Below, piece by piece: positions 2,290 through 49,346 of a stretch of 64,000 nucleotides of DNA. How positions within the stretch are numbered: the first letter of the stretch is position 1; each line of letters opens with the position of its first letter. This DNA is from Natronomonas salina (lineage in GTDB: Archaea; Halobacteriota; Halobacteria; Halobacteriales; Haloarculaceae), in the NCBI RefSeq assembly GCF_013391105.1, contig NZ_CP058335.1:3100001-3164000 (forward strand), read 5' to 3'. Below the pieces are notes generated by a model, which worked only from the letters and a program-made list of their open reading frames with translations, did no database searches and was not told the origin of the DNA. The translations under genes were made by a program, and so were the position numbers.

Positions 2290-3414
2290 ATGAGTGACCC
2301 ACTACTCCGCGTCGAGAACCTCAAGACGCAGTTCTTCACGGAAGCCGGTACAGTTCGCGCCGTCGACGGCATCTCCTTCGACGTCCACGAGGGCGAGATC
2401 GTCGGCCTCGTCGGCGAGTCCGGCGCCGGCAAGAGCGTGGCGGCGATGAGCCTGCTGCGCCTCGTCGAGTCGCCCGGCCGGATCGTCGACGGCCGCGTCG
2501 AGTTCCGAGGCGAGACCCTCATCGAGTTCGAGGCGGGCCCCGACGGCGACCCGCAGCCGACCGACGCGATGCTCTCCGACGAGGATATGCGCACGCGGAT
2601 CCGCGGCCGCGAAATAGCCATCATCTTCCAGGACCCGATGGAGTCGCTGAATCCGGTGTTCACCGTCGGCGGCCAGCTCCGGGAGTTCATCGAACTTAAC
2701 CGCGACCTCTCGGGGGCCGAGGCCAGGGAGGAGGCCGTCACGATGCTCCGGGAGGTCGGCATCCCGGATCCCGAGACCCGCTACCACGAGTACCCCCACC
2801 AGTTCTCCGGCGGCCAGCGGCAGCGGGTGCTCATCGCGATGGCGCTGGCCTGCGAGCCGTCGCTCATCGTCGCCGACGAGCCGACGACGGCCCTGGACGT
2901 CACCGTCGAGAGCCAGATCCTCTCGCTGGTCGACGAGCTACAGCGCCGCTACGACACCTCCTTCATCTGGGTCACCCACGACCTCTCGGTGGTCGCCCAG
3001 CTCTGCGACCGCGTCAACGTCATGTACCTCGGCGAGATCGTCGAGCAGGCGGAGGTCGACGACCTGTTCTACGACACCAAGCACCCCTACACCGAGGCGC
3101 TGCTGAACTCGATGCCCCGGCCCGACCAGACCATCGAGGAACTGGAGCCGATCGAGGGCGTGATGCCGGAGGCGATCCAGCCGCCGCCGGGCTGTCGGTT
3201 CCACCCTCGCTGCCCGGACGCCCGGGAGGTCTGCCGGGAGGTCCGGCCGGACTGCCGCAGCGTCGTCGACGCGGCGGCCGGCGAGGACGACCACCGGGCG
3301 GCCTGCGTGAAGCACGACGCCTTCGACGTCGACTACGAGGGCAGCGAACCGCTGGACGTCGACGCCGGCAGCGGCTTCACCGCCGGCCTCCAGGAGGAGG
3401 AGAGCCATGAGTGA
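2290..3414 (+). CDS. dppD: ABC transporter ATP-binding protein, DppD family
   Basis: Protein of 374 residues from the ATG at 2290; an in-frame TTG at 2278 is less likely because it lies inside the preceding gene. Walker A (GESGAGKS) is at about residues 42-49, the signature FSGGQRQR near 171, and Walker B ([11 protein letters not shown]) near 192-202. The C-terminal part carries the oligopeptide-transporter extension with cysteines ([15 protein letters not shown]), typical of DppD/OppD. It hydrolyses ATP to drive import through the two permeases. It overlaps the next ATPase gene by 8 bases, so the two partner ATPases are translationally coupled. Confidence 0.92.
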
Positions 3415-5011
3415 CACCGAGGACCCCCTGGTCCGCGTCGAGGGCCTGTCGAAGTACTACTCGGGCGACGCCGGCTTCTTCGGCGGCTGGGGGATCGACA
3501 CCGACGAGTTCCCGCCGCTGGTGCGGAACGCCAACCCCGTCCAGGCCGTCGAGGACGTCTCCTTCGAGATCAAGCAGGGCGAGACGCTGGGGCTGGTCGG
3601 CGAGTCCGGCTGCGGGAAGTCGACGCTCGCCCGGACGATCATCCGGCTGCTGGAGCCGACCGACGGCCGCGTCTACTTCAAGGGCCGGAACCTCACCGAC
3701 CTGAGCGGCGAGGAGATGCGGCGGATGCGCGAGGACATCCAGATGATCTTCCAGGACCCGCAGTCCTCGCTGGACCCCCGGATGAAGATCGGCCCGATCG
3801 TCGAGGAGCCGATGAAGGCCCACGGCCTGCCCGAGTCCGACCCGGACGTCTCGACGCGCGCCGAGGTCGACAACCGGACGCCCCACGAGGCGACGGTCCA
3901 CGTCGACGACGACGTCGACGTCGCGGTCGCGACCGCCGGCGGCGTCGCGACCGTCCACGTCACGATCCGCGAGGTCGAACCCGAGACGGACGCAGACGAC
4001 GAGGGCGACGCGGAGCCGGAGGTCGTCGCCGAGACCGACGCGGAGCACCTGGGGACCGACGTCGACTTCGACGGCGAGACCGTCTCGGTGCGGGTGTCGG
4101 TCGACGCCTCGAAGGCGGCACTCAGGCGTGCGCGCGCGAAGGACCTCCTGGAGAAGGTCGGTCTCGACCCCCAGCACTACAACCGCCATCCCCACGCCTT
4201 CTCCGGCGGCCAGCGCCAGCGTGTCAACCTCGCGCGGGCGCTGTCGGTCAACCCCGACTTCATCGTCTGCGACGAGCCGGTGTCGGCCCTCGACGTCTCC
4301 ATCCAGGCGCAGGTGCTGAACACGATGCAGGAGCTCCAGGAGGAGTTCGGGCTCACCTACCTGTTCATCGCCCACGACCTGAGCGTCATCCGCCACATCT
4401 CAGACCGGGTGGCGGTGATGTACCTCGGCCAGCTCGTCGAGCTCGCCGACAAGGAGGAACTCTTCGAGAACCCCCAGCACCCCTACACGCGAGCGCTGCT
4501 GGAGTCCATCCCGGCGCCGGACCCGCGGACGACGGAGACGCGGGCGCCCCTGGAGGGCGACGTCCCCAGCCCGTCGAACCCGCCGTCGGGTTGCCGGTTC
4601 CGCACCCGATGTCCGAAGCTCATCGCACCCGAGGAGTACGACTTCCGCGAGGGCGAGTGGGAACAGACCCGTCGGTTCATGCGCGCGGTCGACCGGCGCT
4701 CCTTCGAGTCGGCCGACGCCGCCGCGCTCCGCCAGCGGTTCTTCGACGGCGCCGAACCGGGCGGCGCCGCCGGCGACGTGGTCGGGGAGGCCATCGACCT
4801 GGTCGCAGACGGGCAGTGGGCGGAGGCCACGGAGCTACTGAAGACCGAGTTCGCCAAGAAGAGCGTCTGCGCCCGCGAGGAACCGGCCTACGAGGTGCCG
4901 ACGGCGTACGGCGACGACGTCCACTTCGCGGCCTGCCACCTGCACCGCGGCGAGGCCGGGGTCCGCGACCTCCGGGGTACCGACGCGCCCCCAGAGGCCG
5001 CCGACGACTGA
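3407..5011 (+). CDS. dppF: ABC transporter ATP-binding protein, DppF family, with two large insertions
   Basis: Protein of 534 residues, against about 330-350 for ordinary DppF. Walker A (GESGCGKST) is at residues 65-73, the Q-loop ([11 protein letters not shown]) at 114-124, the signature SGGQRQR from 266 and Walker B ([11 protein letters not shown]) from about 285. Between Q-loop and signature lies an extra acidic, strand-like segment at about residues 143-240. A second insertion splits the C-terminal cysteine region: the CRFRTRCPK part and the later KSVCAREEP part are separated by about 75 residues. Both insertions are in frame with similar base use, so this looks like a genuine long form rather than a sequencing error. 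Last gene of the transporter operon. Confidence 0.9.
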
Positions 5012-43004: not shown

Positions 43005-43712
43005 ATGGCTACGGAGACGTGTGCGTTCGTCGGTGCCGCGGGTGGCGCCGGCACGACGCGCGTGACGCTGGAGTGTGCAGCCCTACTGGCCCGGGAGGGG
43101 AGCGACGTCGCCGTGCTCGACGCCGCCTACGGGACGCAGGGGCTCGCCGATCGGATCCCTGGTCGCGTCGACCCCGACGTGACCGCCCTCTGTCTCGACG
43201 ACCGACCGCTCGAGGAGGGGTTCGTCGACCCGGACGTGTCGGGCGCGGGACGGCTCGCCGTCTGTCCCGCCAGGGCGCCGTTTGAGCGCCTCGCCCGGGC
43301 GAAGGCACCCGAGGCGGCGGCCGCGTTCGGCGACCGGATCGACGAGGCCGCCAGGGCCTTCGATCACGTCCTCGTCGATACGCCGCCCGTGGCGGCCAAC
43401 CAGGCGGTCGCCGCAGTGACCGGCGTCGAGCAGGTCGCGGTGGTCTGCGACGCCAACCGCGCCGCCGCCGCGGTCCCCCGCGCCGAGGACCGACTGGCCG
43501 ACGTCGGCATACCGGATCCGGTGACGGTCGTCACGAGGGCCGAGGACCACCCCGACGCCGACGTCGCGGTCCCGACCTTCGAGGGCGAGTGGCCGGCCGT
43601 CTCCGGGGACGAATCGGTCCACGACGCGTTCGCAGCCGTTCTCGGTATCGCCGTCGACGTGGCGGTGGAACCGGAGACCGGCGAGGGGCTCCGCTCGAAG
43701 TTCCCCGTATAG
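43005..43712 (+). CDS. MinD/ParA-like protein lacking the ATPase lysines
   Basis: Protein of 235 residues with the layout of the MinD/ParA deviant-Walker family: N-terminal strand and P-loop-like FVGAAGGAGTTRVTLECAALLA, GSDVAVLDAAYG after it, FDHVLVDTPP as Walker B, and QVAVVCDANRAAAAVPRAEDRL. The signature K-G-G-x-G-K-T has become A-G-G-A-G-T-T, so both lysines are absent and ATP hydrolysis is unlikely. A homologue is, as I recall, next to the TFB gene in other haloarchaea, so the arrangement looks conserved. The C-terminal about 25 residues are short compared with MinD. It shares DNA with the antisense tail of the gene at 43364-44206. Confidence 0.85.
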   Translation: MATETCAFVGAAGGAGTTRVTLECAALLAREGSDVAVLDAAYGTQGLADRIPGRVDPDVTALCLDDRPLEEGFVDPDVSGAGRLAVCPARAPFERLARAKAPEAAAAFGDRIDEAARAFDHVLVDTPPVAANQAVAAVTGVEQVAVVCDANRAAAAVPRAEDRLADVGIPDPVTVVTRAEDHPDADVAVPTFEGEWPAVSGDESVHDAFAAVLGIAVDVAVEPETGEGLRSKFPV

Positions 43713-44206
43713 AGCCAGTCGTCCGCGTCGCCGACGGCGTCGGACAGGGGGTCCGAATCTCGACCGGTCGACAGCGCGTCTGCGACGACCGCTTCAGCGT
43801 CGGCGATCGGTTCGTGGGTCGCGACGTAGGCGCCGAGCGCGAACTCGTCGTCGCCGACGCCGATCAACCGTTTGGCCTCGGTCCGCGATATCTCGCCGGC
43901 CAGCCAGTCGTCGATGATCCGACCGCCGGTGGGCGTCAGGGGATCGACGGGCTCGCCGAGCAGGTGGAGCGCTTTCGCCGCCATCGTCTTCGGTAGTTCG
44001 GCCACGGCCGCCGCGCGACCGACGCTCGCCCCACCGACGTAGGCCTCCACCAGCGTCGCGGCGGCGTCGGCCGAACAGGGGAGCTCGTCGTCGAACCTCG
44101 ACAGTCGGTCGGCCAGCGTCGCGTCCGTCTCGTCGCTCGTCGCGACGCTGCGCTCCCGCTGTTCGGTCGTCACCTCCAGTCCGGCGGCGATGTCCGACAG
44201 GGCCAT
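43364..44206 (-). CDS. Uncharacterised haloarchaeal protein with antisense run-through tail
   Basis: Protein of 280 residues if read to the stop. The first about 165 residues look like a real domain: MALSDIAAGLEVTTEQRERSVA, ADAAATLVEAYVGGASVGRAAAVA, PKTMAAKALHLLG and FALGAYVATHEPIADAEAVVADAL, a helical regulator-like layout. From about residue 170 the reading becomes a Ser/Thr/Ala-rich string because it is antisense to the MinD-like gene for 349 bases. Loss of the original stop after DDWL (the codon there is TAT, one change from a stop) is a plausible cause. Transcribed divergently from the TFB gene, with a gttaaac promoter-like element about 29 bases upstream. Confidence 0.72.
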   Translation of the reverse strand: MALSDIAAGLEVTTEQRERSVATSDETDATLADRLSRFDDELPCSADAAATLVEAYVGGASVGRAAAVAELPKTMAAKALHLLGEPVDPLTPTGGRIIDDWLAGEISRTEAKRLIGVGDDEFALGAYVATHEPIADAEAVVADALSTGRDSDPLSDAVGDADDWLYTGNFERSPSPVSGSTATSTAIPRTAANASWTDSSPETAGHSPSKVGTATSASGWSSALVTTVTGSGMPTSASRSSARGTAAAARLASQTTATCSTPVTAATAWLAATGGVSTRT

Positions 44207-44231: not shown

Positions 44232-44238
44232 GTTAAAC
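44232..44238 (-). promoter_or_regulatory. TATA-like box of the gene divergent from TFB
   Basis: gttaaac (gtttaac on the minus strand) is about 29 bases before the ATG of the minus-strand gene and 40 bases to the left of the large palindrome, so both flanking promoters are close to it. Confidence 0.5.
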
Positions 44239-44278: not shown

Positions 44279-44303
44279 GAGCGTACCGGTTACCGGTACG
44301 CTC
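44279..44303. promoter_or_regulatory. Perfect 25-bp palindrome upstream of the TFB gene (candidate operator)
   Basis: GAGCGTACCGGT, one central T, ACCGGTACGCTC: a perfect 12-bp inverted repeat with one-base spacing. It lies between two divergent promoters, 40 bases upstream of the TFB TATA box, and does not overlap any gene. A perfect dyad of this length is not expected by chance in so short a region, so a dimeric DNA-binding protein is likely to bind here. The ligand or regulator is unknown. Confidence 0.75.
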
Positions 44304-44342
44304 CTCGCCGATGGACCGGTTCGTTTCCGCCGCCGCTGCTCG

Positions 44343-44350
44343 TTTTTAAA
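44343..44350 (+). promoter_or_regulatory. TATA-like box for the TFB gene
   Basis: tttttaaa lies about 32 bases before the ATG at 44379, consistent with a near-leaderless transcript, and starts 40 bases after the end of the 25-bp palindrome. Confidence 0.65.
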
Positions 44351-44378: not shown

Positions 44379-45248
44379 ATGAGCACGAGCACGCGACGGG
44401 CCTGCCCCGAGTGCGAGGGGCGGCTGCGGAGCACCGGCACGGAGACGGTCTGCAGCGAGTGCGGTCTGGTGGTCGGCGAGGACGCCCTCGACCGAGGGCC
44501 GGAGTGGCGGTCGTTCGCGGACGACGACGGCAACCCGGAGCGCTGCGGGGCGCCGCTCACCCGATCGCGACACGACCGCGGACTGTCGACCGAGATCGGC
44601 CACTCCACGCGCCTGAAGGGACGGAAGCGGCGACGCGTGGCCCGCATGCGGCGGGAGCACAAGCGGGCGCGGATCGGGTCGAAGCGCGACCGCAACCAGG
44701 TCTACGGGTTCACGGAGATCCGGCGCGTGACGGGCCAGCTCGAACTCCCCGACGCGCTCCAGGAACGGGCCTGCGTCCTCTTCGAGTCCGCCCAGGACGA
44801 GAACCTCCTGCAGGGCCGTTCCATCGAGGGGTTCGCCGCGGCGGCGGTGTACGCGGTCTGCCGGACCGCCTCCGTCTCGCGGACGCTGGGGGAGATCGTC
44901 GGCGTCGCCGCCGCCGACGAGGCCGAACTGAAGGTCGCCTACGACGCGCTGAACCGCGACCTCGGATTGCCGACCGGCCCCATCGACCCCGCGGAGTACC
45001 TCGCCCGCTTCGCCTCGAAGCTCGACGTCCCGAGCGCGCTGGAGCGGCGGGCCCGCGAGCTCGCGACGGATGCCAGTGACGCCGGCATCACGACCGGCCG
45101 GAATCCCAGCGGTGTCGCCGCCGCCTGCCTCTACACGGTCGCCCGCGAGTCGAGCTACGACCTCACGCAGGAGGAGGCCGCCGACGTGGCCGGCGTCTCG
45201 ACGGTCACGATCAGGAACACCTACCAGGACCTGCGGGACTCGGCCTGA
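44379..45248 (+). CDS. tfb: Transcription initiation factor B (TFB)
   Basis: Protein of 289 residues. An N-terminal zinc ribbon (CPECEGRLR, then CSECGLVVG) is followed by a B-reader/linker region and two cyclin-like repeats (about residues 100-190 and 195-285). Typical phrases are SIEGFAAAAVYAVCR and NPSGVAAACLYTVARE, with the C-terminal DNA-contacting helix ending STVTIRNTYQDLR. It recruits RNA polymerase to TBP-bound promoters. Haloarchaea carry many TFB genes with different targets; which one this is cannot be fixed. The ATG at 44379 is chosen over a GTG three bases upstream. It ends overlapping the convergent gene by 28 bases. Confidence 0.95.
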   Translation: MSTSTRRACPECEGRLRSTGTETVCSECGLVVGEDALDRGPEWRSFADDDGNPERCGAPLTRSRHDRGLSTEIGHSTRLKGRKRRRVARMRREHKRARIGSKRDRNQVYGFTEIRRVTGQLELPDALQERACVLFESAQDENLLQGRSIEGFAAAAVYAVCRTASVSRTLGEIVGVAAADEAELKVAYDALNRDLGLPTGPIDPAEYLARFASKLDVPSALERRARELATDASDAGITTGRNPSGVAAACLYTVARESSYDLTQEEAADVAGVSTVTIRNTYQDLRDSA

Positions 45249-49215: not shown

Positions 49216-49346
49216 TTGATTACCAGACCTTGGCGCGCCGCCGGTTAAGAAGTTTGCCACCCGGAGCGGAAGTGAAGTCGGCGTCCCGACGCCTGCTGGC
49301 GATTATCCGGGAGGTCTCGACTCAATCGCCCGCCGCCGTCCGGGAG

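Follow-up and report, generated by a model that had tools for sequence, protein, structure and literature searches.

A conserved palindrome between a haloarchaeal TFB gene and its divergent neighbour is a candidate operator of the DUF7858 protein

Haloarchaea carry many TFB paralogs, and to our knowledge the way in which the level of each TFB is itself set is largely an open question. The locus described here may bear on it. In Natronomonas salina a long perfect palindrome lies between a TFB gene on the forward strand and a divergent DUF7858 gene on the reverse strand. What does the palindrome do there, and which protein may read it? The window, by which we mean the whole 64-kb stretch of DNA that was analysed, contains the following features around it.

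43005..43712, forward strand: MinD/ParA-like gene (AAA_31/ParA/MinD-like), convergent with DUF7858, in the position of minD1 (HVO_0225) of Haloferax volcanii
43712..44206, reverse strand: DUF7858 protein (PF25257), proposed HTH regulator, predicted all-helical fold with an HTH
44232..44238, reverse strand: putative TATA box of DUF7858, GTTTAAC, centred about 56 bp from the middle of the palindrome (clustering near 46, 56, 66 and 77 bp in relatives)
44279..44303, no strand: 25-bp palindrome, proposed operator, with arms 44279-44290 and 44292-44303 and centre 44291; perfect dyad, conserved in orthologs, with symmetric covariation
44304..44342, forward strand: spacer between palindrome and TFB TATA box; in the ortholog set A/T-rich columns alternate here with G/C-only ones in a phase-locked 10-bp period
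44343..44350, forward strand: putative TATA box of TFB, TTTTTAAA, about 56 bp from the palindrome, centre to centre
44379..45248, forward strand: general transcription factor TFB (PF00382, E 2e-39; PF08271, E 4e-11)

The TFB has TFIIB repeats and a Zn ribbon. Its start was placed, by comparison with orthologs, at the conserved ATG 44379, GTG 44376 being an alternative start of the reading frame. The Haloferax volcanii ortholog, judging from the gene neighbourhood, is presumably HVO_0226, the TFB gene beside minD1 (HVO_0225). At least three further TFB genes of the Natronomonas salina genome (L048, L228, L229) are 75-79% identical to one another and form a lineage-specific expansion, with no relatives at that level in 58 other genomes of the class. 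Relatives have a stop that the DUF7858 gene lacks here, and its reading frame therefore extends to 43364; the overrun of about 115 codons (43364-43711, reverse strand) is antisense to the MinD-like gene. The latter adjoins DUF7858 in 93 of 121 loci that have DUF7858 and in no locus that lacks it. Its P-loop, GAAGGAGTTR in the window and GATGGAGTTR in relatives, is without the usual lysines, a feature that is conserved.

The palindrome reads GAGCGTACCGGT-T-ACCGGTACGCTC, with 12 of 12 arm positions complementary around a 1-nt centre, just as the first-pass annotation had described it. That annotation also called it the longest perfect palindrome noticed outside genes, and a search for inverted repeats with arms of at least 12 and a loop of at most 10 indeed returned it as the sole case in the window. 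Twenty dinucleotide-preserving shuffles of the window gave a mean of 0.15 such repeats and none with a loop of at most 1. A check for further copies found none at up to 3 mismatches in the complete genome (3.75 Mb, one contig), and the next-closest matches to the 19-bp core have 3 mismatches. The 40 bases counted from the palindrome to the TATA box on either side were right as well, because each TATA box is centred 56 bp from the middle of the palindrome, leaving a gap of about 40 nt. This placement relative to the two putative promoters supports the suggestion, made in the same annotation, that TFB and its neighbour may be controlled together.

If the palindrome has a function, it should be found at orthologous loci, and its absence there had been named as the result that would speak against one. 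We collected orthologous TFB loci from named genomes, from the genus of the window (to which Natronomonas sp. CBA1123, genome G016, locus L013, also belongs) and from 120 further stretches of genomes of the class, and scored each for both letters and symmetry, taking a score of at least 20 as presence. The palindrome is far from absent: it was present in 127 of 145 loci (118 of 136 distinct ones), while 435 other stretches of 300 bp from these loci scored 19 at best. The inner columns hold 1-2 bits of information and those just beyond 23-25 bp hold about 0, so that the conserved footprint at the locus is limited to the 23-25 bp of the palindrome itself. The C at position 4 and the T at position 1 hardly vary. 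Roughly half of the sequences have C.G at position 8 and most others G.C, nearly always with a match across the dyad. Rare changes in the core are likewise matched in both arms, as in Halomarina (GTGTCGGT/ACCGACAC) and in locus L092 (ACCTAT/ATAGGT). Altogether there are 95 two-sided changes versus 36 in shuffles, and 0 of 500 shuffles reach 95. The covariation between arms is 0.278 versus 0.115 when shuffled (again 0 of 500), and shifting the partner position abolishes it. Matched, compensatory changes of this kind are characteristic of sites read by symmetric dimers.

Which protein might read it is suggested by the distribution of the site. At the level of loci, the palindrome was found in 127 of 127 loci (118 distinct) from genomes with DUF7858 versus 0 of 18 TFB loci from genomes without it. 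PF25257 was detected in 179 of 292 genomes, and a profile of the 25-bp site matched 167 of the 292 at an E-value of 0.05 per genome: 160 of the 179 genomes with DUF7858 versus 7 of the 113 without. These 7 are close to the chance expectation of about 5.6-6 at this E-value, and no TFB was recognised beside the match in the two strongest of them (G135 and G190). Fisher's test gives p of about 1e-50 for the association, on genome counts that ignore kinship. The TFBs of genomes lacking DUF7858 are orthologs within the same TFB tree, on which the DUF7858-negative state requires at least three changes. Genera g5 and g7, which belong to the window's own family, have neither DUF7858 nor the site.

Co-loss taken alone is weak evidence, because some losses are simple deletions. 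In genus g34 and in QH_8_64_26 (L007), both without DUF7858 and without the site, a HIT-family gene now abuts TFB, and the adjacent gene and the site may have been removed there in a single deletion. Three other kinds of locus carry more weight. In Halosimplex (L009, L011, L079, L080) and in L084, insertions have displaced DUF7858 by 1-1.8 kb (1.8 kb in Halosimplex), and in L107 it is also separated from TFB; gene and site are both kept, with the site at the TFB promoter. In Halorubrum-like genomes (genus g17) the site lies 72-76 bp from the DUF7858 start and TFB has shifted to 200-250 bp. Finally, L106 and L114 (genomes G152 and G261), which lack DUF7858, retain a remnant of the site at the expected -86, with 18 of 24 consensus letters and broken symmetry. 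No convincing second palindrome was seen beside the displaced DUF7858 genes, L084 having a different dyad 80 bp upstream, and a search for DUF7858 genes on plasmids found none. As a separate observation, locus L227 (G252, 3319-3702) comes from a genome in which DUF7858 and the palindrome are intact but the TFB match is confined to residues 8-100; conversely, G072, G115 and G254 match DUF7858 weakly and have no TFB ortholog that reaches the cut-off; from these patterns, the DUF7858/TFB pair tends to decay together.

The presence of the palindrome thus tracks DUF7858, a neighbour with HTH-like features, which makes the palindrome a candidate docking site for that protein. Going beyond the first-pass annotation, we therefore regard the neighbour itself as the best candidate for the regulator, a proposal drawn from sequence comparison and a structural model. 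DUF7858 is a haloarchaeal protein of 165-175 residues; among a control set of 14 well-known genomes it occurs only in Haloferax volcanii. The window protein matches PF25257 with an E-value of 2e-56 (190.8 bits against a curated cut-off of 27). An AlphaFold2 model built from a 68-sequence alignment has a pLDDT of 85, rising to about 97 in residues 31-140; the N-terminal 30 residues are conserved but modelled with low confidence. The predicted fold contains a tri-helical HTH unit (helices 46-57, 62-68 and 73-82, pLDDT about 97) followed by a second helical unit at 92-149. The invariant residues are K78, L80 and G84, all in the HTH, and H131. HTH_28 weakly matches 20 of the 68 family members (best 2.8e-4), the window protein not being among them.

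Comparisons with known structures gave weak matches. Foldseek returned nothing significant with the model (best E 0.49), and the top of its weak list is rich in operator and parS binders, KorB, Spo0J and TrpR, with E 0.5-0.6 and TM 0.2 for KorB and Spo0J. VIA-align gave Z of at most 5.5, mostly with HTH regulators, a resemblance that may reflect only a common helix arrangement. A sequence search of the PDB with the DUF7858 profile gave no significant match, NCBIfam contains no DUF7858 family, and covariation between DUF7858 residues and half-site letters did not rise above that of the TFB control.

The spacing around the palindrome follows rules on both sides. Towards TFB, 96 of 118 loci have the TATA box 54-58 bp from the palindrome. 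Towards DUF7858, the distances to the start codon cluster at 73-75, 83-86, 94-96 and 105-108 bp, with a phase coherence of 0.79 at 10.5 bp versus at most 0.31 in jittered sets, the species in this comparison not being independent. The spacer leading to the TFB TATA box barely conserves its letters, and its composition alternates by column: positions +14, +23/24, +33/34 and +43/44 are 59-75% A/T, and positions +19, +29 and +39 are 3-15% A/T. The Fourier power at 10 bp is 0.133 versus 0.011 (sd 0.003) in shuffles and is seen in three identity bands. The alternation is weak on the DUF7858 side. It was absent from the TFB promoters of genomes without DUF7858 and from 25 MCM promoters of the same class; the latter were taken as a control because the paralogous TFBs of the Natronomonas salina genome, being a local expansion, were unusable for the purpose. 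The mcm promoters have a feature of their own. Upstream of the mcm gene in the window (49261-49276, reverse strand) lies TTCACTTCCGCTCCGG. Most of 25 haloarchaeal mcm promoters have a matching TTCASTTYCRSYCYG-like motif, similarly placed, which may be a conserved element in the control of replication genes.

Taken together, sequence and model make it probable, in our judgement, that the palindrome is the operator of DUF7858, bound by a dimer that would control both its own promoter and that of TFB, and would do so rather as an activator or homeostat than as an occluder. The DUF7858 dimer would contact two half-sites of about CGTACCGGT, some 45-65 bp upstream of each TATA box, and would act on TFB through contact with, or bending of the DNA towards, the preinitiation complex, not by covering the promoter. 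Archaeal activators usually bind upstream of BRE/TATA, and repressors within or downstream of it (PMC5937170). We infer the sign of the effect from position: an activator or a homeostatic set-point for TFB is favoured over occlusion because the site is upstream of BRE/TATA, is helically phased and faces TFB across a 10-bp phased spacer.

Divergent regulator/target pairs with a single shared operator are often autorepressed, and DUF7858 could bind the same site and repress both genes, as negative autoregulation by looping or contact inhibition without occlusion. In Haloferax volcanii the HVO_0226 mRNA has served as a qPCR reference (PMC7714728), which fits steady expression, whether under such autorepression or under the homeostat that we prefer. 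On the other hand, on either side the operator stands some 40 bp upstream of BRE/TATA, beyond the usual occluding range of archaeal repressors (PMC5937170), and both the phased spacer and the helical phasing point to active contact; repression is therefore the less likely sign, though the most serious competitor. We find it rather improbable that the site belongs to some other, unlinked dimeric regulator of TFB and DUF7858, with DUF7858 a co-regulated passenger. Regulator genes are often located elsewhere, DUF7858 is the binder by inference, and its residues do not covary with the site, but genomes lacking DUF7858 keep their TFB orthologs without keeping the site, the remnant appears to have decayed after DUF7858 was lost, and the HTH-like protein and the site persist jointly even when 1-1.8 kb apart.

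The phased spacer might owe nothing to the palindrome, either positioning a histone-like protein (HpyA/HstA) or being generic promoter composition. A 10.4-bp periodicity is seen in HpyA-bound regions of Halobacterium, but a 10-bp periodicity is not seen across haloarchaeal genomes as a whole (PMC10128011), the HstA motif TCGNSSNCGA is unlike the palindrome, and the MCM promoters and the TFB promoters of genomes without DUF7858 show no alternation, whereas here its phase is locked to the palindrome; we give this explanation a small chance. A smaller one still goes to a centromere-like, parS-type site served by DUF7858, as a ParB/KorB-like HTH protein, and the adjacent MinD/ParA-like protein. 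The frequent adjacency of the two genes (93 of 121 loci), the place of KorB and Spo0J at the top of the weak Foldseek list and the single site per genome in most species all fit. Against this, those matches have E of about 0.5, the site is locked to promoters and not to an origin, the MinD-like protein, devoid of P-loop lysines, does not have the intact deviant Walker A motif of a ParA-type partner, and deletion of all four minD genes leaves division and growth of Haloferax volcanii unaffected (PMC11588486). Least credible is a structural or RNA feature with no protein partner, such as a cruciform, terminator hairpin or attenuator. Perfect dyad symmetry by itself would permit a cruciform, but the loop is 1 nt, letters and not merely pairing are conserved (C at position 4, T at position 1), and the TATA distance is fixed. 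Nor does the site form a transcribed hairpin: being upstream of both predicted leaderless promoters, it falls outside either mRNA.

One observation runs against a homeostat with a single target. Most genomes, and most lineages, have one site, which, like the 10-bp phased spacer, had not been part of the first-pass annotation. Two genomes of one genus (G052 and G156), however, have at least five strong sites (L207-L217) near unrelated genes, several of the positions being common to both. The nearby genes include one whose start resembles chorismate synthase and those of a heavy-metal P-type ATPase, ribosomal protein S19e and a metallo-beta-lactamase-fold hydrolase. Such sites are not expected of a homeostat with a single target; they suggest a regulator acting in trans, with a regulon that has expanded in that genus.

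A broader reading, which we hold tentatively and with somewhat less than even confidence, is that DUF7858 represents a new family of archaeal regulators that set the level of a general transcription factor. One operator equidistant from two divergent promoters would be coupled to the TFB preinitiation complex through the phased A/T-G/C spacer, by DNA bending or by protein wrapped or stacked on one face of the helix, and the arrangement would go back to the ancestor of the class Halobacteria, several lineages having lost it along with the regulator. For a general transcription factor, the locus offers a class-wide cis-element and a named candidate regulator that also occurs in the genetic model Haloferax volcanii. 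A phased spacer that keeps its composition but not its letters would, if true, be an unusual design for an archaeal promoter, in which DNA shape links an upstream regulator to the preinitiation complex.

A palindromic operator of a dimeric regulator is a known kind of element. We found no paper on this palindrome or on DUF7858 in a literature search that had most subscription journals outside its reach, nor did the searched literature describe a class-wide operator that serves the gene of a general transcription factor and combines a phased spacer with a candidate regulator from an uncharacterised family. The window protein is a clear member of Pfam DUF7858, whose entry describes no function; one is proposed here. 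The KorB/IncC and ParB/ParA pairs (1r71, 1vz0) also combine an HTH protein on a palindromic site with a neighbouring ParA/MinD-type gene, and their HTH regions weakly resemble that of DUF7858. The similarity is not significant (Foldseek E of about 0.5), however, and in our case the site is tied to promoters and the MinD-like partner has no P-loop lysines. A further parallel is CsmR of Haloferax volcanii, likewise haloarchaeal and inferred to be a positive regulator, which has a (semi-)palindromic site, TATCA(N4)TGATA, upstream of TATA; the same paper mentions a further layer, the TFB variant HVO_0226 (PMC13286277). CsmR differs in being structurally Lrp/AsnC-like, in the dozens of sites of its regulon and in its motif (PMC13286277). 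Another parallel is TFB-RF1 of Pyrococcus furiosus, also an archaeal regulator with a palindromic site (13 nt, TCTGAANTTCAGA) upstream of BRE/TATA, which activates by recruiting TFB, has a target adjoining its own gene and is conserved in its clade (PMC5937170). Protein family and motif are different (PMC5937170), and a phased spacer of about 40 bp separates the DUF7858 site from the TATA box downstream of it. While TFB is the factor recruited by TFB-RF1 (PMC5937170), in the DUF7858 system the TFB gene would be the regulated target.
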